DNA from: Streptomyces sp. TLI_235
Lineage (GTDB): Bacteria > Actinomycetota > Actinomycetes > Streptomycetales > Streptomycetaceae
Length of the DNA: 64,000 nt
NCBI GenBank assembly: GCA_002300355.1
Contig: NSGV01000001.1
Location: forward strand, 434,001 to 498,000
Direction of reading: 5' to 3'
Part shown: in pieces, positions 12,506 through 21,067 of the stretch
Layout of the letters: every line of letters begins with the position of its first letter
Numbering within the stretch: the stretch's first letter is position 1
Notes under the pieces: generated by a model
Database searches by the model: none
The model's input: only the letters and a program-made list of their open reading frames with translations
What the model was told of the DNA's origin: nothing
Translations under genes and position numbers: made by a program

Positions 12506-13819
12506 TCAGGCGAACTTCGAGCTGGGCACCGGCCCGGCCGAGCGGACCCGGTCGCGGGGGCCGCCGAGCCAACCGCCCCGCACCCGGGCGGCGAACGCCG
12601 CGAGCAGCTCGTCCGGGTCGGCCGGGGTCTCGCCGTCGCCCTCGTCGGGCTCGGGCTCCGCGGCGCGGATCTCCTCGGCCAGTTCCTCGGCCGACCGCTC
12701 GTCGGCCGGGGTGCGCTCGGGCTCACCCGCGTCGCCGATCCGCATCGACGGCTCCCAGGGCGCGACATTGTGCTGCACCAGCAGGGTGGACACGTCCGCG
12801 GAGACCGCCGGCGGGTCCGTCCAGCAGGTGGCGTGCTCGAACAGCACCTCGCCGTCCGCGCGTTCGCGCAGGGCGGCGAGCACCTCCGGGTCGCACTCGT
12901 TCAGGTCGTACGCCACCACCAGCGTGTCCGGGGTGCCCCGCCGGTACGGGGCCGTGGGCAGCCCGAGCAGTCCGGCGGCGGCCAGGCCGAGCGCCCGGCT
13001 GCCGCGGTCGGGCAGCAGCGCCACCGAGGCGGGCCGCCGGCCGGTGGCCTCCAGCACCGTGCCGAGCCGGTCGAGACCGCGCCGGCAGGAGTCGAAGCCG
13101 TCCTGGTAGTACGCCCAGCGGCCGGTCATCCCGGCGGCGAAGCCGTACGGCGAGAGCGTGGTCAGCAGGCCGCCGGTCAGCGTGAAGTGCCAGCCGCGCA
13201 GGTCGCGCAGGTCGGCCGGCGCGGCGAGCCCGGAGCGTCGCAGGGTGCGGCGGACGCGGTCGGCGGCCGGACGCCAGGTCTCCGAGGGCTCGCCGAGCGC
13301 GGCGAACACCCGGCCGGCGGTGTCGAGCCGGCCGGCCATGAGCGCGTTGTGGACCAGCAGGTAGCGGCCCGGCCAGTCGGCCAGCAGGCCGTCGTGCTCG
13401 GTCAGCAGCTCGACGGCGGCGGCGTGCCGCTGCTCGTCCTCGAGGGCGACCGCGAGCTCCAACAGGATCTGCTGCGGCGCGTACGTCGGCTTGGGCGCCC
13501 GGCCGAACAGGCCGCCGCGGCGCGGCGCCAGGGCCAGCCGCAGGGCCTCGCGCAGCGCGGGCACGGCCAGCGCGGACACCCCGCGCTCGATGCACGCGTA
13601 CCCGTAGTCGTACAGCGCGTCCGGCCGGTCGGGGCGCGCGGCGAGCGCGGCCGCGGCCTCGGCGAGGTCGTCGAAGCCGGCGCCCTCGGCGAGCCGGCCG
13701 ACCAGCGGCGCGCAGTCCGCCGGTGCCAGTGCGTCGGCGGCGAGACGCAGGGTGCGCATCGCGCCCTGCGGATCACCCGAGACGAGCAGTTCTCGGGCCT
13801 TGGACAGTTCGGTGCTCAT
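12506..13819 (-). CDS. hypothetical protein with TPR-like N-terminus
   Basis: 437 residues from ATG at 13819. I do not recognise a named family. The first 170 residues are alpha-helical with TPR-like spacing (ALYDYGYACIERGVSALAVP; LLELAVALEDEQRHAAAVEL; YLLVHNALMAGRLDTAGRVF). The middle region (FTLTGGLLTTLSPYGFAAGM; ASVALLPDRGSRALGLAAAG; TLVVAYDLNECDPEVLAALR) looks like a mixed alpha/beta domain, and the last 60 residues are acidic and probably disordered. No signal peptide or membrane segment is seen. It is on the same strand as the decarboxylase-ligase locus upstream but separated from it by 295 bp with a hairpin, so I treat it as independent. Confidence 0.75.
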   Translation of the reverse strand: MSTELSKARELLVSGDPQGAMRTLRLAADALAPADCAPLVGRLAEGAGFDDLAEAAAALAARPDRPDALYDYGYACIERGVSALAVPALREALRLALAPRRGGLFGRAPKPTYAPQQILLELAVALEDEQRHAAAVELLTEHDGLLADWPGRYLLVHNALMAGRLDTAGRVFAALGEPSETWRPAADRVRRTLRRSGLAAPADLRDLRGWHFTLTGGLLTTLSPYGFAAGMTGRWAYYQDGFDSCRRGLDRLGTVLEATGRRPASVALLPDRGSRALGLAAAGLLGLPTAPYRRGTPDTLVVAYDLNECDPEVLAALRERADGEVLFEHATCWTDPPAVSADVSTLLVQHNVAPWEPSMRIGDAGEPERTPADERSAEELAEEIRAAEPEPDEGDGETPADPDELLAAFAARVRGGWLGGPRDRVRSAGPVPSSKFA

Positions 13820-14086
13820 GCAGGTACTCCGGAGTGGACGGGCGGGCATCCGCGTCCCGCTCTTCGGGTGGGACACGGACGCGACGGCGCGCCGGACAAG
13901 GTGCCGCCGGCCCTCGCGGGCCGCGACACACCGGCGCTCAACGGAACGGGCGGCAGCCGCCCTTCCGGTCGTGGTCGCACATGCGGCCGATCATGTCGGG
14001 CCGCCTCCACGCCGGGCAACCCGATTTCCCCGCGCCCGGGAGCGGCGCCGCTCGCGCGACGCCGACGACTCCCCTGCTCCCGGAGC

Positions 14087-14107
14087 GGGCCGGACCGGGT
14101 CCGGCCC
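14087..14107 (-). terminator. hairpin terminator after citrate-synthase-like gene
   Basis: GGGCCGGACC (14087-14096) and GGTCCGGCCC (14098-14107) are perfect inverted copies with a single-base gap, eight bases past the stop codon of the minus-strand gene. The rest of the 13820-14114 space shows no gene. Confidence 0.7.
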
Positions 14108-14114
14108 GGCCGGT

Positions 14115-15137
14115 TCAGGCTGCGGTCGGAACCGGGTGGCGGGTGCGGTTCTGGTCGAGGATGTGGGCGGACCAGTCGGCGGTGCGGCCGCAGATGGCGA
14201 GGGCGGTGAAGAGGTGGACGGGGACGTCGGCGGAGTCCAGCAGGACGGCGGCCCAGAACTGGGGGCCGGCCGTGGCCGGAACGGGGGCGGCGCCGACCTC
14301 GGCGAGCAGTTCTGCGGCGGCCTCCTCCAGCCGGGCCGCGGCCTCGTACCGGGGGGCGCCCACCCGCAGCACGGCCTCCCGCAGCACGCGGGCACGTTCG
14401 GCGGCCGCCCCGGTCGGGGGTGCGGCGAACAGCGGCAGCGCCTCGCCGCCGACCAGCGCGGACCGCACCACCGCCCGGACGTCCGTGCCGTGTTCGGCCT
14501 CGGCGACCAGCCGCAGCACGGCCGCCGGGACGGCCCCGTGCCGGGGCCCGCCCATCGCGGCGACCGCGCCGGACAGGCAGGTGGCGACGTCCGCGCCGGT
14601 GGAGGCGATCAGCCGGGCCGTACTGCTGGCCGCGTCGACCGGGTGGACGGCGACGGAGCACCAGTAGGCGTCGACGGCTCGGACGTGCTGTGGTTCGGCG
14701 GTGCCGCGCCAGCGCAGCAGGAAGCGTTCGGCGGCGCTGCCGCCCGCCTCGATCGCCCAGTACGGCACGGTCGGCAGGTGCAGGCCGCGGACGGACTGGG
14801 CGACGAAGGCGTGGGTGGCGAGGGTGGCGCGTTCCAGGTCCTCGCGGGCCTGTTCGTCGCCGATGTCCTGCAGCGGGCCGAGTCCCCAGGCGGGGCCGAG
14901 GGCGGCGAGCGCGCTCTGGGTGTCCACCCGGACGTCGCCGTGCCGCATCGGCAGGGTCAGCGGCTCGCCCGGGCCGAGGCCCGGCCACGGTCTGCCGTCG
15001 ACGAGGACTCCCCAGACCTCGTCGAAGGTGTGACGGCCGATCAGCGCGGCCGGGTCGGGCCCGACGACGTCGAAGCCGGGCAGGTCGGGGATGGACAGGT
15101 CGGGGGCATCGAGGCCGGGGGCGGCGGGGTCGGGCAT
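14115..15137 (-). CDS. citrate synthase-like protein with degenerate active site
   Basis: 340 residues, shorter than the usual 370-430. The C-terminal two thirds fit the citrate synthase large domain: SSTARLIASTGADVATCLSG, AMGGPRHGAVPAAVLRLV (H200 aligned with the first catalytic His in GPxHG), FWAAVLLDSADVPVHLFTAL and ICGRTADWSAHILDQ (conserved substrate-binding Arg kept). The second catalytic His motif, normally GxGHPxY, is GEALPLF (231-237), with Leu at the His position. The catalytic Asp before the FW pair is Gln293. So it should not work as an ordinary citrate synthase; a changed condensation, a hydrolytic activity or a regulatory role are all open. A good GAGGAG site precedes ATG 15137. 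It is downstream of the EamA gene, with a strong hairpin between. Confidence 0.78.
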   Translation of the reverse strand: MPDPAAPGLDAPDLSIPDLPGFDVVGPDPAALIGRHTFDEVWGVLVDGRPWPGLGPGEPLTLPMRHGDVRVDTQSALAALGPAWGLGPLQDIGDEQAREDLERATLATHAFVAQSVRGLHLPTVPYWAIEAGGSAAERFLLRWRGTAEPQHVRAVDAYWCSVAVHPVDAASSTARLIASTGADVATCLSGAVAAMGGPRHGAVPAAVLRLVAEAEHGTDVRAVVRSALVGGEALPLFAAPPTGAAAERARVLREAVLRVGAPRYEAAARLEEAAAELLAEVGAAPVPATAGPQFWAAVLLDSADVPVHLFTALAICGRTADWSAHILDQNRTRHPVPTAA

Positions 15138-15257
15138 GGACGACTCCTCGGTCCGGACCGGCTGCTGCGGTCCGGCTGGTGCGGTCGTGGGGCTGTGCGG
15201 CCGTACGGCCGTGACGGTGCCGTCCGGGCCGTGTGGTGCGGTCCGGGGACGGCGGAT

Positions 15258-15303
15258 GGGCACCGCCCGCCGACGGCCACGAGGGCCGGCGGGGACGGTG
15301 CCC
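15258..15303 (-). terminator. long hairpin between EamA and citrate-synthase-like genes
   Basis: GGGCACCG (15258-15265) and CGGTGCCC (15296-15303) end a stem that continues inward with the GC-rich arms CCCGCCG and CGGCGGG, about 20 bp after the EamA stop. It may terminate or attenuate transcription before the citrate-synthase-like gene. Confidence 0.6.
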
Positions 15304-15323
15304 GGGGTGTGCTCCGGTGCGGC

Positions 15324-16340
15324 TCAGCGGCCGGCGGTGGCCGACTGCTCGGCCGGACGCCGCTCGGCGGCCGGTGCGGCGGCCACGGGTGCGGCCGGTG
15401 CCGGTGCCTGAGCGGCGGCCCGGCGCCGCAGGTAGAGGTTGTTGAGGACGAGGGCGGACGCGGTGAACAGCGCGCCGACCACCTGCATGCCGGCCGGGAT
15501 GACACCGGTCAGCGCGGAGATGGTGAAGGCGGTGATCGGGACGACGTCCATGAACAGCACGCCGTTGAGCGGGCCGAGGTTGCGGTTGCCGATGTTCCAG
15601 GCGAGCACGCCGCCGAAGCCGGCGATGAGGCTCATGTAGGCGAGCTCGGGCAGGATCGTGACGACCGCGCCGCCGGTCGGCACCGCGACCGCGCCGGTGG
15701 CGAGCAGCACCGCGGTGATGACCACGGCGCTGCCGAGGCCCAGCACGGTGGTGACGGTCGTGTACTTGATGGGTGACCAGGTCGGGAAGTATGTCGCGCC
15801 GGAGGTGTAGATCACCCAGCAGAGGGCGGCGAAGAGCAGCAGGGCGTCGGCGCCGAAGTTCTGCGGGGTGTTGACCAGCGAGGCCAGGTCGCCCTTGGTG
15901 ACGACGAGGATCACGCCGACGAAGGACAGTCCGATGAAGGCGAAGGACCACCGGGGCGGCACGACCTTGCGCAGCACCCAGTTCACCAGGAAGCCCATCA
16001 TCGGCATGGTGGCCATCATGATGGAGGCGATCAGCGCGCCCTGCTCGCCGATCAGGTCCTGGCCGAAGAAGACCAGGAACTGGAAGCCTGCGAATCCGGC
16101 GGTGCCGAACAGCCAGGCCAGGCCGACCCGCTCGCCCTTGAGGCGCAGCCCGGCGGCGCCCTCGCGGCTGCGCAGGACGACCAGGAAGATCAGGCCGGCG
16201 ATCCCGTAGCGCAGGCAGGTGAAGGTGAAGGGGTCGATGTGCTTCAGCGTCACGTCCATGAGGGGGAACATCGCGCCCCACGAGAGCGTGGCCGCGAGGC
16301 AGAGCAGAACCCCTCGGGCGTACTTCTTCTGGTCGTTCAC
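15324..16340 (-). CDS. EamA/DMT superfamily transporter
   Basis: 338 residues from a GTG start preceded by AGGAG at five bases. Ten hydrophobic segments in two EamA halves can be followed: GVLLCLAATLSWGAMFPLMD and FTCLRYGIAGLIFLVVL in the first, LLLFAALCWVIYTSGA to IPAGMQVVGALFTASALVLN in the second. The C-terminal 40 residues are Ala/Pro/Arg-rich and cytosolic. DMT exporters of this type move amino acids, amines and small metabolites outward. It is 52 bp downstream of the (frame-restored) AMP ligase stop, in the same direction as the decarboxylase, so it is likely the exporter for the product of this locus. Confidence 0.85.
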   Translation of the reverse strand: MNDQKKYARGVLLCLAATLSWGAMFPLMDVTLKHIDPFTFTCLRYGIAGLIFLVVLRSREGAAGLRLKGERVGLAWLFGTAGFAGFQFLVFFGQDLIGEQGALIASIMMATMPMMGFLVNWVLRKVVPPRWSFAFIGLSFVGVILVVTKGDLASLVNTPQNFGADALLLFAALCWVIYTSGATYFPTWSPIKYTTVTTVLGLGSAVVITAVLLATGAVAVPTGGAVVTILPELAYMSLIAGFGGVLAWNIGNRNLGPLNGVLFMDVVPITAFTISALTGVIPAGMQVVGALFTASALVLNNLYLRRRAAAQAPAPAAPVAAAPAAERRPAEQSATAGR

Positions 16341-16392
16341 AATTCTCCTGTCAGGGAGTCGGGGTGAGGTGGTGCGGCACGCAGGATTCGGG

Positions 16393-18005
16393 TCATGCCG
16401 TCGTCAGCTCCATGCGGTCGGCCGTCGCGGCCGAGTCCTCCTGCCCGATCAGGTCGAGGACGGTCGACAGCAGCTGCGCGGTGCGCACCTTGCCGGTCGG
16501 GCTGTAGGGGATCTCGGGACGGTCACGACGCGCGCGGGCAACTGCGGTGCGCGGCGCAGGCACGCGGCGAGGACGGCACGGGAGCCGCTCGCCTCGCGCT
16601 CGGGGGAGATGGGGGCGAAGGCGGCGACCAGCGTCGGACCCTCGTCGGGGAGGTCGACCTTGAGGACGGCGGTCTCCCGGACGCAGGGGAGGCCGGTGAG
16701 TTCGTCCTCGAGGGCGAAGATGTTGACGTCCAGCGGGTGCCGGCCCTCGGCCTTGGTGACGCCGTCGTTGCGGGCGCTGAGCTCGATGCGGCCGCCCTCG
16801 TCCATGACGCCGCTGTCGCCGGTGAGCAGGTACTTCTGTGTCCGGCCGGCGTGCTCGATGTGCAGGAAGTCGGGCTCGGCGGCGGCGTAGCTGTCCATCA
16901 GCTGGTAGCTGGCGATGGCGATCCGGCCGAGCCGGCCCTTGGGCAGCGGGCGGTGCTCCGGGTCGAGGACGAGGATGGTGCTGCCTGGCATCGGCCGGCC
17001 GGAGCGGGCCGGGGCGACGTGCAGCTCCTCGGGGCCGATCATGGTGTTGAGGCCGGTCTCGGTGGTGCCGTAGTACAGGTGCAGGACGGGGCCGAGGCGG
17101 TCCCAGGTCTGGTTGATGACCCAGCGGTTGAGGTGGCGTCCGCCGGAGAGCAGGAAGCGCAGCCGGGAGGTCTTGTGCAGGTGCTCGGAGGCCGGGTGCG
17201 AGATCAGCCGGTTGAGCACCGGCGGCACCATCAGGGTGGTGGAGACGCCCTCGGAGACGATCAGTTCGGCCATCTTCCCGGCGTCCTCGTACGGGCTGAG
17301 CACGACCGTGCCGCCGAGCGAGAGGGAGATCCGGGCCCAGCCGGGGCCGGAGGAGTGGTAGAGCGGGACGGTGACCATGTGGACGTCGTCCTCGTCGAAG
17401 GAGAACTGGTCGACGAGGTCGGAGAGCCGGCGCGCCTCGAACGAGGAGTTGCGGATGACCAGCTTCGGGATGCCGCTGGTGCCGGAGGTGAAGGAGAACG
17501 CGGTGAACGGCTGCTCGACCGGGGTGGTCGGGACGGCCTCGAAGGAGGCCAGCGCCTGGTAGCAGACGGCGCCGGGTGCGGCCGGGCCGGTGTCGTAGTC
17601 GTCGTTCTCCGGGCCGGCCAGGTGGATGCTGAGGACGTCGCGCCCGCCCGGCCAGCCGGACTGCTCCAGCAGCGGGCGGCGCAGCGGGGTGCTGATCAGC
17701 ACGGTCGGCTGCAGCTGTTCCAGGGCGCCGGCGGTGGCCTCGGGGGTGGTCGTGTAGTCGAGGCCTATGCAGGGCACGCCGAGGGTGGCGCAGGCGGCCA
17801 TGACGACCACCAGCTCCCAGCTGTTGCACGACATGAAGGCGGCCCGGGCGGGGCGCTCGGCGGGCAGGTGGTGGGCCAGGCCGGAGGCCACCCGGGCGAC
17901 CTGCTCGGCGAGTTCGGCCCAGGTGAGACGGAAGTCGCGGTCCACCACGGCCACGTGGTCGGGGCGCCGCGCGGCGTGCTTGCGGATGTCGTCGAGCTTG
18001 ATCAT
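16393..18005 (-). CDS. class I adenylate-forming enzyme (AMP ligase), frameshifted near the C-terminus
   Basis: The uninterrupted frame is 16449-18005 (518 residues), but its last 26 residues are out-of-frame sequence. Shifting one base at 16511-16520 restores EIPYSPTGKVRTAQLL and a stop at 16393, giving about 537 residues. Core motifs are intact: FTSGTSGIPKLVIR (A3), LYYGTTETG (A5), YLLTGDSG (A7) and ARNDGVTKAEG (A8 hinge). The A10 Lys (PYSPTGKVR), needed for adenylate formation, is only in the shifted frame. So either one base in the CCCG run was lost (sequencing error or mutation) or expression needs frameshifting. It starts three bases after the decarboxylase stop. The substrate carboxylate is unknown; no carrier-protein domain is fused. 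Confidence 0.82.
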
Positions 18006-18008
18006 GCG

Positions 18009-19553
18009 TTACTCCGATGCTGCGGTGGTGGCGGATGCCGTCTCGGGGTCCCGGGCGGCGGCGGGTTGCGGCTGGTAGAGCGTGTAGATCTCGCTGCCGC
18101 TGGCGCGCAGCGCCCGGATCTCGGCGCGGGTCGCGTCGCAGAGCTTCTCGCCGGGCACGGTGATGGGGATGCCGGGCGGGTAGGCGATGATGAAGTGGTC
18201 GGCGCTGTCCTCGTGCAGGGCCGCCGAGGTCGTCCGGTAGGTGCGCTGGATGACCCGCAGGGCCTCCAGGAGGCGCAGCAGGGTGCCCTCGTCGACGCCG
18301 ATGTGGACGTGGAAGAGGACGGCGCCGCCGCTCTCCCGGGCCACGTAGAGGGCGTACTCGTCGAAGAGGATGCGGCGGAAGTCGGCGGCGGTGATGCCGA
18401 GGGCGCGGATGTCGACCAGGACACGGGTGGGGTCGTCGGAGACCAGCATCGCCGGGTCGGTGAGGTGGCCCTCGGGGCCGAGGGTGCGGTAGGCGGAGAG
18501 CCGGGGGTCGGTGGCGATCTCGTTGCGCAGGGTGCGGGCGAGCATCAGGGACCGGTCCAGCAGCACCTCGCCCTCGTGCTCGGCCTGCAGCCGGGCGAGG
18601 TCGAGGCTGGCCAGCACCGGGAAGCTGGGCGAGGTGGTGTGGTGCTGGAAGAGGGCCTGCGCGGTGCGCTCCTGCGCCTCCCGATCGCCCACGAGGTGCA
18701 GGTACGAGCCCTGCCGCAGCGCGGACATCGACTTGTGCGCGGAGTGCGTGACGGCGACCGTCATGGGCAGTGACGGGTCGTCGGCGCGGAGCTGTTCGAC
18801 GGCGGCGAGCGCGGTCAGCGGACGCAGCTGCGGGTGGAAGCGGTGGATGGCGCCCCAGGCCTCGTCCACCAGGACGTTGACCGCGGGGTGGAGCCGGGAC
18901 ATCTCGGCGAGCAGGGTGGGCAGGTCGTAGCGGACGCCGTCGTAGGAGACCGCGGACAGCACCACGGTGTCGTACGGGCGGCCCTCGGCGGCGGCCTGGG
19001 CGAAGCTGTGCAGCAGCACCGGGAGGTCGGCGAAGGTGCGCGGGCAGCTGTCGCAGCAGCGCCGCATCGGCGCGTAGTCGACGGCGACGTCGAGGGAGCC
19101 GAGGGCGAAGTGCACGGACTGGTGGCAGCTGCGGTCGGCGAGGACCCGGCCGCCGGGTCGGGTGAGCGCGGCGAGCGCGACCCGGTTGGCGGTCGAGGTG
19201 CCGGCGGACAGGAAGAGCGTGGTGTCCGCGCCGAAGGTCCTGGCGGCCAGCCGCTGGGCCTCGCGCAGCGGCCCGTGCGGGCGGAAGAACGAGTCGAGCA
19301 TGGTGCCGCTGTAGGACACGTCGGCGGCCAGCTGCGCCTGCCCGAAGAGGGCCTCGTACACGGCCTTGGTCCGGGAGTTGAGGATGGACCGGCCGTGCGA
19401 GAGGGGCAGCGCGTGGAAGGACGCGATGTCCCGTCTGGCGACGCGCAGGACGGCGTCGGCGAGCGGGGTGGCGCTCGGCTCCGGGGGGCCGAGCTCCGAC
19501 ACGGCCTGCGGGACGGCTTCCGGCCCGAGGGCGGTGCTGCTGGCTGGGGTCAT
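18009..19553 (-). CDS. Orn/Lys/Arg decarboxylase-family PLP enzyme (fold type I, group III)
   Basis: 514 residues. Phosphate-binding LSAGTSTANRVAL (115-127), cofactor-stacking RSCHQSVHFAL (141-151), VLVDEAWGAIHRFHP (227-241) with the ring-nitrogen Asp, and THSAHKSMSALRQGSYLHL (269-287) with PLP-linked Lys274 are the group III decarboxylase signature. The C-terminal domain has IAYPPGIPITVPGE, as in ornithine, lysine and arginine decarboxylases. Expected product is a diamine or agmatine, though some relatives act on other amino acids. It heads the four-gene minus-strand locus with an AMP ligase, DMT exporter and citrate-synthase-like protein. The first 30 residues are a low-complexity leader. 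Confidence 0.9.
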   Translation of the reverse strand: MTPASSTALGPEAVPQAVSELGPPEPSATPLADAVLRVARRDIASFHALPLSHGRSILNSRTKAVYEALFGQAQLAADVSYSGTMLDSFFRPHGPLREAQRLAARTFGADTTLFLSAGTSTANRVALAALTRPGGRVLADRSCHQSVHFALGSLDVAVDYAPMRRCCDSCPRTFADLPVLLHSFAQAAAEGRPYDTVVLSAVSYDGVRYDLPTLLAEMSRLHPAVNVLVDEAWGAIHRFHPQLRPLTALAAVEQLRADDPSLPMTVAVTHSAHKSMSALRQGSYLHLVGDREAQERTAQALFQHHTTSPSFPVLASLDLARLQAEHEGEVLLDRSLMLARTLRNEIATDPRLSAYRTLGPEGHLTDPAMLVSDDPTRVLVDIRALGITAADFRRILFDEYALYVARESGGAVLFHVHIGVDEGTLLRLLEALRVIQRTYRTTSAALHEDSADHFIIAYPPGIPITVPGEKLCDATRAEIRALRASGSEIYTLYQPQPAAARDPETASATTAASE

Positions 19554-20039
19554 GGGTGTGCACTCCAGAGGGGTATCGGAGCACCCGGGAGAGGGCGTGG
19601 GCTGAGTGCCTCGACTCCATGAAATAAAACCTTCGCGGCGGTATCAAATGGCATCGAGAATTCTGATGACCCAACGAACTTCTCGCAAGAGGGCTTGCGC
19701 CGGCGCGCGGTGTACGGATGGGACGCCGGAGGCCCCTGAGGGGAGCGATGACAGATCCGCGCGCCGCTTCTGCGGATTCACGCACGTCAGTGCCGAGCTG
19801 CACGCGCAACGACGAACCGACCGACAGTCCGATGCGGCGCCGCGCCGCACTCGTTCCTTCACGGAGGATTTGACGGACCGTCGATGGTTCGCATGGTAAG
19901 TGCGATGATCTATGGAAACGGTGGGGCAGCCGACCTGCCGCGTCAGCGGTTTCCGACCGATCGGTCTGAAGCCGGAGGGCCGCGGGCGACGCCGGAGCAG
20001 GACGGCGCTCGGGTGTCGGAGCAGGACGGTGCTCGGGTG
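19554..20039. other. 486-bp intergenic region upstream of the decarboxylase locus
   Basis: No gene is supported here. The first 130 bp include an unusually AT-rich patch around 19617-19690 (GAAATAAAACC; CGAGAATTCTGATG), which probably holds the promoter of the decarboxylase operon. I could not define matching -35/-10 boxes with confidence. The last 45 bp carry a 24-bp tandem repeat that runs into the 3' end of the LRR gene. Confidence 0.6.
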
Positions 20040-20056
20040 TCAGAGCAGGACGGTGC
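19993..20056. repeat. 24-bp tandem repeat at the 3' end of the LRR gene
   Basis: A 24-bp unit starting CGGAGCAGGACGG occurs at 19993-20016 and 20017-20040, with a third partial copy to 20056 inside the LRR coding end. On the minus strand the unit encodes HPSTVLLR-type octapeptides, which would follow the LRR stop codon if it were read through. Confidence 0.8.
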
Positions 20057-21008
20057 AGCCGCGCTCGCGGAGGGCCGGCAGCCAGTCGGGCAGCGTCTCC
20101 GGCTTCGTCCAGCGCAGGTCGAGCTTCTCCAGGTCGGGCAGGTCTGCCAGCCCGGCGGGGAGGTCGGTGATCCGGGTGGCCCGCAGGTCGAGCTGGCGCA
20201 GGCGGCGGAGCGCACCGACGGACTCCGGCAGGCGGCGCAGCGGGTTGTTCCGCAGGTCGATCACCCGCAGGTCCGTCAGACCGCCGATGCTCGCGGGCAG
20301 TTCGGTGATCCGGTTGTCGGCCAGGTGCAGCTCGCGCAGCGCGGTGAGCCGGCCGAGGGTGTCCGGCAGCTCGGTCAGCCGGTTGCGGTAGAGCCGGAGT
20401 TCGCGGAGCGCCGCCAGTGAGCCCAGGGACGCGGGCAGGGTGGTGAGCCGGTTGTCCGTCAGATTGAGGTAGCCGAGGCGGTCCAGTCGGCCGAGGCTCG
20501 CCGGGACGGCGGTGAAGCCGTTGTCGCTGAGGTAGAGGTAGTCGGTGAGGTACGACAGGTCGCCGATGACCGCCGGGATGTGGTCGAGCCGGTTGTGGCC
20601 GAGGTCGAGCATCCGCAGCCCGGTGAGGGCGCCGATGCCGTCGGGCACTCCGGTCAGCTCGTTCTCGGCCAGGTTGAGCGAGTGCAGGCCGGTCAGCCGC
20701 CAGAGCCGGTCCGGCAGTTCGGCGAGGCCGTTGCCGCCCAGGCTGAGGTGGCGCAGGGCCGGTGCGTCGCCCAGCTCGGACGGCACACTGCCGATCCGGT
20801 TCCCGTACAGCAGCAGGGTGTGCAGCGCGGGCAGCCCGGCGACCGCCGCCGGCAGCTCGGTCAGGCGGTTGCCGTCGAGGTCGATCAGCCGGAGGCCGCG
20901 CAGTGCGGCGAGGTCCTCGGGCCAGTGGGTGAGGCCGGCGTGCGGTGCGCGCAGGGCGACCGGGGTGCCGTCCGGGTCACGGCGGAGGGAGTTCGGGGGA
21001 AGGGGCAT
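20040..21008 (-). CDS. leucine-rich repeat protein
   Basis: 322 residues, nearly all leucine-rich repeats: about eleven 23-residue units of the form LRxLdLxxNxLtxLPxxi from residue 30 to 305 (for example GLRLIDLDGNRLTELPAAVA, DLRVIDLRNNPLRRLPESVG). This is the bacterial SDS22/plant-intracellular-like class expected to form a solenoid for protein binding. No enzyme domain, signal peptide or membrane segment is seen. It is 59 bp downstream of the pentapeptide-like membrane gene and on the same strand as the protease-NTPase block, so it may be part of that module. Its stop codon falls in a 24-bp tandem repeat. Confidence 0.9.
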   Translation of the reverse strand: MPLPPNSLRRDPDGTPVALRAPHAGLTHWPEDLAALRGLRLIDLDGNRLTELPAAVAGLPALHTLLLYGNRIGSVPSELGDAPALRHLSLGGNGLAELPDRLWRLTGLHSLNLAENELTGVPDGIGALTGLRMLDLGHNRLDHIPAVIGDLSYLTDYLYLSDNGFTAVPASLGRLDRLGYLNLTDNRLTTLPASLGSLAALRELRLYRNRLTELPDTLGRLTALRELHLADNRITELPASIGGLTDLRVIDLRNNPLRRLPESVGALRRLRQLDLRATRITDLPAGLADLPDLEKLDLRWTKPETLPDWLPALRERGCTVLL

Positions 21009-21067
21009 CACGGCACCTGCGTTCGGATTCGGGGGTGCGGTCGAGCGGCCGGCTTCAGGCGGTCGGC

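Follow-up and report, generated by a model that had tools for sequence, protein, structure and literature searches.

In Streptomyces venezuelae, the gaburedin genes gbnA, gbnB and gbnC, which we take to encode a decarboxylase, a ligase and a transporter, are the closest described counterpart that we can put forward for the locus reported here, a run of four minus-strand genes in a 64,000-nucleotide stretch of DNA (the window; positions 434001-498000 of contig C1 in a 9.25-Mb genome, G000, that we take to be of Kitasatospora). Excerpts of the published accounts, on which the cited statements in this text draw, describe gbnABC as silenced by GbnR, with deletion of gbnB abolishing gaburedins (PMC10971088), and place the three gaburedin genes (RS20785-20795) next to a butyrolactone locus (RS20800-20805; PMC9769785). 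A cassette of the mmyR/mmfR/mmfLHP type has been exploited in the same species (PMC6335953), the scl cluster has a short LysR-like gene between its MmfL-like and MmfP-like genes (PMC6335953, section 6), and one butyrolactone region of Streptomyces sennicomposti GMY01 is 70% similar to the gaburedin cluster (PMC10458361).

The window locus was singled out in an earlier note, made from the letters of the DNA, as a pyridoxal phosphate (PLP) decarboxylase (here DC), an adenosine monophosphate (AMP)-forming ligase (LIG), an EamA exporter and a citrate-synthase-like protein (CIT), with the remark that no described pathway held exactly this set. That remark can be withdrawn for three of the genes, which together with a gamma-butyrolactone cassette fit the accounts of gbnABC as far as the excerpts give them. 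We consider it quite probable that the locus is a gaburedin-type (gbnABC-like) operon with a hormone-type operator, which would make and export small ureas that join an amino acid to one that has been decarboxylated, the latter most likely gamma-aminobutyric acid (GABA).

Results

The decarboxylase-ligase-exporter cassette

Reading frames and Pfam matches agree with the four genes and the families named for them in the earlier note (E-values: DC, OKR_DC_1, 2.1e-51; LIG, AMP-binding, 2.4e-56; EamA, 1.6e-20; CIT, Citrate_synt, 1.5e-34), as do the coordinates with the three-base gap that it saw between DC and LIG, the DC frame ending at 18009 and the LIG ATG lying at 18005. DC, LIG and EamA are a recurrent three-gene cassette, its order kept in two phyla and its ligase and exporter fused in a third. 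When named genomes were scanned with DC, 16 loci emerged, 15 of them from Streptomycetaceae and one from a Lactobacillaceae metagenome-assembled genome (MAG); LIG adjoins DC in all 16 and EamA comes next in 14, an arrangement also found at L072, L073 and L077. No EamA gene was found at L044 and L047 in this 16-locus comparison. In these two Streptomyces, DC-LIG lies just upstream of a region that we named FtsE/FtsX-like by eye. Gene order in the MAG is the same, at 33, 29 and 43% identity over the three genes, and the full cassette stands in order at L072, from the MAG's class, and at L073, from another actinomycete family. At an E-value of 1e-60 a DC profile matched 5 of 394 genomes of the window's class and 2 of 398 of the MAG's class, and at 1e-80 it matched 6 of 297 genomes of the family (query genomes included); as only the first candidates in each genome were scored (three in the class searches, five in the family search), these counts may be low.

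Among plasmid records, four from Azospirillum match DC at 45-46%. Two of the four plasmids were examined, and in both a fusion of AMP-binding and EamA parts, 852-853 amino acids long, begins about 10 bp after DC, which ties the ligase to the exporter. Most of the plasmid matches are Sinorhizobium and Rhizobium records. The Rhizobium relatives of DC (37%) lie inside a salicylate nonribosomal peptide synthetase (NRPS) siderophore cluster; those of Rhizobium tumorigenes (L083:14980-16464) and R. etli (L084:19980-21461) are annotated as hypothetical and perhaps supply an amine unit to the siderophore. A siderophore reading of the window locus, prompted by the Rhizobium relative, was set aside, given that those loci have no adjoining LIG-EamA and that their subclade lacks the active-site arginine described below. 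A plasmid of Rhizobium leguminosarum encodes a 788-amino acid decarboxylase-type protein (L081:5530-7896) near nif genes, a biotin-carboxylase-like protein and a C45 peptidase.

In a tree of 30 proteins the 18 DC-type sequences form one clade with support of 100/100, apart from the included decarboxylases of E. coli, Bacillus and other Kitasatospora; long branches meet in this tree, so that the branching within the DC clade and the deep joins are unsure. Two changes of the trio label are required on it. The counts bear out the view of the earlier note that a tightly coupled decarboxylase and ligase with an EamA gene make a real gene set, and the synteny check that it proposed shows co-occurrence beyond one clade, the cassette being present in Streptomyces, Kitasatospora, the Lactobacillaceae MAG and Azospirillum. 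Its wider idea that all four genes form one set stands for DC-LIG-EamA, which recur, and not for CIT, which was seen only in the window's genus. Chance grouping, the outcome it had attached to homologues never occurring together, is contradicted for the three genes by their recurrence.

Operator and hormone genes

The DC promoter holds a motif of the autoregulator response element (ARE) type. Promoters from 15 of the 17 Streptomycetaceae loci were aligned (L046 and L049 were left out), and an element like TTGATACCTTCGCGAAGGTTTTATTTCATGG stands upstream of DC in 13 of the 15; L050 has a weaker form, and L044 and L047 have none. The same core lies between the TetR and AfsA genes (eight loci shown) and before a second TetR gene (seven loci shown). 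A matrix made from 18 sites of nine Streptomyces loci only gives the window site a score of 24.2, compared to 11.4 for the next site in the window and 10.9 for the best of 20 mononucleotide-shuffled windows. Elsewhere the L050 site scores 13.9, and the AT-richer L051 and L072 reach 18.7 and 14.5, values that are not low but belong to sites not in a comparable place. With up to three mismatches allowed, the pattern occurs once in the window against 0.07 expected, and symmetry is lower in the window operator than in its Streptomyces counterpart.

Scanning the whole genome with at most two mismatches returned eight matches at five places, compared to none for a reversed-pattern control. One place is the DC promoter, with no mismatches, and the other four fall within C1:3,884,891-3,895,211, 3.4 Mb from DC, a stretch that contains an AfsA gene together with two ScbR-like matches, one of them near C1:3.8887 Mb, and one LysR-like match by tblastn. 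That the only other operator places are at this AfsA/ScbR-like locus, at 3.89 Mb, suggests that the window operon may be controlled in trans by a receptor encoded there.

In Streptomyces the hormone genes are close at hand: TetR, AfsA, HAD hydrolase and second TetR genes stand beside the cassette in 9 of 12 loci (L037-L043, L045 and L048), while L046 is cut short and L044 and L047 are without hormone genes. At L040 the first TetR protein matches the NCBIfam equivalog for ScbR (218 bits, cut-off 150) and the AfsA protein that for ScbA/BarX (280 bits, cut-off 200); the second TetR protein, at 114 bits, falls under the ScbR cut-off. At several Streptomyces loci AfsA and HAD flank a partial LysR match. 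One of the nine, L045, is from S. sennicomposti, the species of GMY01. TetR and LysR matches in the window are weak and lie 17 kb and 33 kb from the operon.

Active site of the decarboxylase

DC has the PF01276 domain and conserves the PLP lysine, the aspartate and the histidine (Table 1). Decarboxylases of the OKR family classically act on basic amino acids, and the glutamate of the CadA/SpeF type binds the distal amine of lysine or ornithine. At the position of this glutamate (CadA E526, in the VEK/PEK motif of CadA, LdcC and SpeF) all 18 members of the DC clade have A, S, N or T, and the residue after it is arginine in 16 of the 18, the two exceptions being the Rhizobium NRPS ones. The window protein has A405-R406 in place of E-K, and AdiA has T-R there. 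We discarded a polyamine route from lysine or ornithine because DC lacks the active-site glutamate. The same absence of a residue common to the E. coli lysine and ornithine decarboxylases tells against the acylated diamine or agmatine suggested as a product in the earlier note; AdiA, the arginine enzyme, is also without it and also has arginine next, and arginine therefore stays a possible substrate. Our best guess, from the active site and the gaburedin link, is that DC would convert glutamate to GABA. The missing glutamate and the nearly invariant arginine provide a simple handle on the substrate. A PF00282 profile matched at five other places and not at DC, for which it is unsuited.

The ligase

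LIG has a PF00501 domain, and its best NCBIfam matches are acyl-CoA ligases, far under their cut-offs. PF13193 (AMP-binding_C) was unmatched in all seven ligases scanned (E 0.001-0.01); in the L036 and L078 ligases, alignments to full-length acyl-CoA ligase models run on through the C-terminus, which suggests that the C-terminal domain of LIG is diverged and not missing. As listed, the LIG frame stops at 16449. Next to L036 and L049, the two close relatives compared, a run of C at about 16516-16518 is a base short, which puts the C-terminus and its A10 lysine motif, SPTGKVR, into a different frame that ends at 16393. All 16 relatives have this motif in frame, with SMSGKVK of L051 included. The frameshift may be either real decay or an assembly error. 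Elsewhere in the genome, a further short match to the ligase C-terminus (L118:6262-6477) comes after a paralogue of LIG at the AfsA/ScbR-like locus (Table 1).

The citrate-synthase-like gene

A standard citrate-synthase-like copy, 50-52% identical to the window CIT, is found elsewhere in all 70 genomes of the genus. A second, closer copy (57-100%) stands behind EamA in each of the five genomes with a DC orthologue, defined by at least 83% identity, and in none of the other 65; 32 of the 70 have some weaker DC match. The association has a Fisher p of 8e-8, for which the five genomes are not independent because they are related. Among the 16 cassette loci CIT was found in three, all from the window's genus (to which L036, L049 and L050 belong), and it also occurs in G022; no copy turned up at the remaining 13 or at L072 and L073.

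The altered active site reported in the earlier note is confirmed by comparison with E. coli GltA (numbered from Met1): the window CIT keeps H265 and has A at H306 and Q at D363. The standard copies of the genus have E at the D363 position. H265 is also lost in the CIT of G022, and that of L050 keeps both catalytic histidines. The ratio of nonsynonymous to synonymous substitution rates (dN/dS) for CIT is 0.28-0.45 from the window to L036, L049 and G022, 0.60 from the window to L050 and 0.13 between L036 and L049, compared to 0.07-0.35 for DC, LIG and EamA and 0.03-0.18 for the standard copies. The best NCBIfam match of CIT is PRK12350, a model which we take to describe SCO5831-like citrate synthases, at 287 bits against a cut-off of 332. 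CIT is a diverging, genus-specific extra paralogue under mostly weaker constraint, and most likely a pseudoenzyme with no citrate synthase activity.

Features of the locus

The features discussed are collected in Table 1. For CIT a start at 15137 is more likely than one at 15263, and a scan of positions 13900-20100 for sigma-70 promoters and terminators gave no match. Upstream of DC the window encodes a leucine-rich-repeat protein (20040-21035, minus strand), which adjoins the operon in L036 and L049 too and is unmatched in L050. Downstream of CIT lies a 456-amino acid protein (12506-13876, minus strand) that has no Pfam or NCBIfam match at 0.01 and is 87% identical in L036 and L049.

Table 1. 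Positions and distinguishing marks of the genes and the operator (window positions unless a locus is given)
Feature	Position	Strand	Remarks
DC, PLP decarboxylase of the OKR fold, 514 amino acids, putatively GbnA-like	18009-19553	minus	K274, D230, H144; A405-R406
LIG, AMP-forming ligase, putatively GbnB-like	16393-18005	minus	frame broken at about 16516-16518
EamA/DMT-type exporter, putatively GbnC-like	15324-16340	minus	Pfam EamA
CIT, citrate-synthase-like paralogue, probably a pseudoenzyme, genus-specific neighbour	14115-15137	minus	H306/D363 lost (GltA from Met1)
ARE-type operator motif ATACCGCCGCGAAGGTTTT in the DC promoter	19626-19644	minus	motif; overlaps TTGATA hexamer
LIG paralogue, 55% identical to the window LIG	L118:4580-6208 (G000 C1:3,885,079-3,886,707)		directly behind an operator at the AfsA/ScbR-like locus; A3 and A10 motifs lost
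LIG-EamA fusion, Azospirillum plasmids	L078:9462-12020; L079:9435-11996		directly downstream of DC; LysR genes and a cysteine hydrolase adjoin

Discussion

As a gaburedin-type operon, the locus would be transcribed from the promoter upstream of DC. The ARE-type operator in that promoter suggests repression by a ScbR/MmfR-type gamma-butyrolactone receptor, which the hormone would lift. At most Streptomyces loci the receptor and hormone genes lie next door, and in this Kitasatospora the AfsA/ScbR-like locus 3.4 Mb off would act in trans. The amino acid decarboxylated by DC would most likely be glutamate, or else another acidic one or any that is neither lysine nor ornithine. LIG would activate a carboxylate or carbamate and join the two amino compounds, and EamA would export the urea product. 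CIT, an additional paralogue that sits after the cassette in Kitasatospora, has lost catalytic residues.

Several points weigh against this account. With LIG frameshifted, the pathway may be dead in the window strain. In the stretches examined, no AfsA or HAD match adjoins the operon at any of the five Kitasatospora loci, and the operator pattern was not matched at the second AfsA locus of the genome, at C1:1.60 Mb. L044 and L047 are without both EamA and the operator, and three DC relatives (L074, L075 and L076) have no LIG or EamA neighbour by tblastn at 1e-3. S. bambergiensis makes gaburedins with no identifiable gbnA or gbnB, according to the excerpts of PMC12402327. Finally, the proposed equivalence of DC, LIG and EamA to GbnABC is drawn from gene number, neighbours and the published antiSMASH result for another strain. 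As a separate observation on two of the relatives named above, L074 and L075 (G820 and G496) come from small actinomycete genomes in which the DC relative adjoins a gene that looks MiaB-like by eye.

The enzyme families leave room for a different amide or urea, in which DC would supply another amine (with arginine, aspartate or a neutral amino acid as examples of its substrate), to be acylated by LIG as in N-acyl-amine natural products. This would accord with the classical preference of OKR enzymes for basic amino acids, with the T-R of AdiA at the positions of A405-R406, which leaves arginine possible, and with acyl-CoA ligases, all far under their cut-offs, as the best NCBIfam matches of LIG; however, the whole DC clade (18/18) is without the glutamate of CadA, LdcC and SpeF, and neighbourhood and operator fit the gaburedin system, so that we see this as unlikely. 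The distribution of CIT can be read in favour of a true four-gene pathway, in which CIT would supply a 2-hydroxy acid for LIG to activate: the gene stands behind EamA in all five DC-positive Kitasatospora genomes, its frame is open with dN/dS at 0.28-0.45 (window to L036, L049 and G022) and 0.13 (L036-L049), and the L050 protein keeps both catalytic histidines. Such a pathway is nevertheless improbable, since 13 of the 16 cassette loci, as well as L072 and L073, have no CIT that we could find, and the window protein has lost H306 and D363, to which G022 adds the loss of H265. Least credible, to a degree that we would hardly entertain it, is a chance grouping of unrelated genes; DC is indeed rare and patchy (orthologues in 5/70 genomes of the genus, matches in 5/394 of the window's class and 2/398 of the MAG's class), yet the gene order is kept across two phyla and a gene fusion occurs in a third.

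The gaburedin-type reading thus preferred gives a likely identity to a locus that had looked uncharacterised and extends a gaburedin-like gene set well beyond Streptomyces. Two predictions follow from it: that one conserved operator places an operon under the control of a hormone system to which it is not linked, and that ureas may be formed by a family of AMP ligases. A bolder version, which we offer as speculation and think rather doubtful as a whole, would have DC-LIG-EamA as a phylum-crossing module (Actinomycetota, Bacillota and, as a fusion, Alphaproteobacteria) for ATP-dependent urea formation, a little-known chemistry, by an AMP ligase family with a diverged C-terminus; the Kitasatospora operon would have left the hormone cassette, stayed wired in trans to a hormone receptor via one operator 3.4 Mb off, and recruited a dead citrate synthase as a non-enzymatic partner. 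On the preferred reading, the Kitasatospora locus is a variant gaburedin-type operon whose hormone cassette lies elsewhere in the genome and to which a probable citrate-synthase-like pseudoenzyme has been added. Among the matches listed, a literature search found no pairing of gaburedin with Kitasatospora or Azospirillum, and searches by family names gave nothing relevant to the locus, neither of which proves absence from print.

Set against described systems, CIT is nearest to the SCO5831-like citrate synthases presumed to underlie its best NCBIfam match, and differs from them in its score below the cut-off and in the absence of H306 and D363 from the window copy. DC shares its PLP lysine, aspartate and histidine with the OKR decarboxylases CadA, LdcC, AdiA and SpeF, and the closest solved structures by sequence, 9n0o and 9n0n, are of the Rv2531c type; they are named Rv2531c in the excerpts of PMC12910592, which give the activity as unknown. 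Unlike the Rv2531c-type and OKR enzymes, DC belongs to a separate clade of proteins of about 500 amino acids, with HQS in place of HKS and A/S/N-R in place of E-K. The methylenomycin and scleric acid cassettes (mmfR, mmfL, mmfP and mmyR; the sclM genes and sclL) have, by gene kind, the same genes that lie beside the Streptomyces cassette, but they control other biosynthetic genes, and no such cassette was found beside the operon in Kitasatospora. From gbnABC of S. venezuelae, which the excerpted accounts present as a three-gene biosynthetic operon beside a gamma-butyrolactone-type locus with a TetR-type repressor, the window differs in that the hormone cassette does not adjoin, a CIT pseudoenzyme follows and LIG is frameshifted, the comparison being one of gene content. 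On that footing, and with the gbn gene content as we take it to be, the likeness lies in three adjacent genes for a decarboxylase, an AMP ligase and a transporter, and a GABA-derived product such as a gaburedin would suit the decarboxylase and the AMP ligase.

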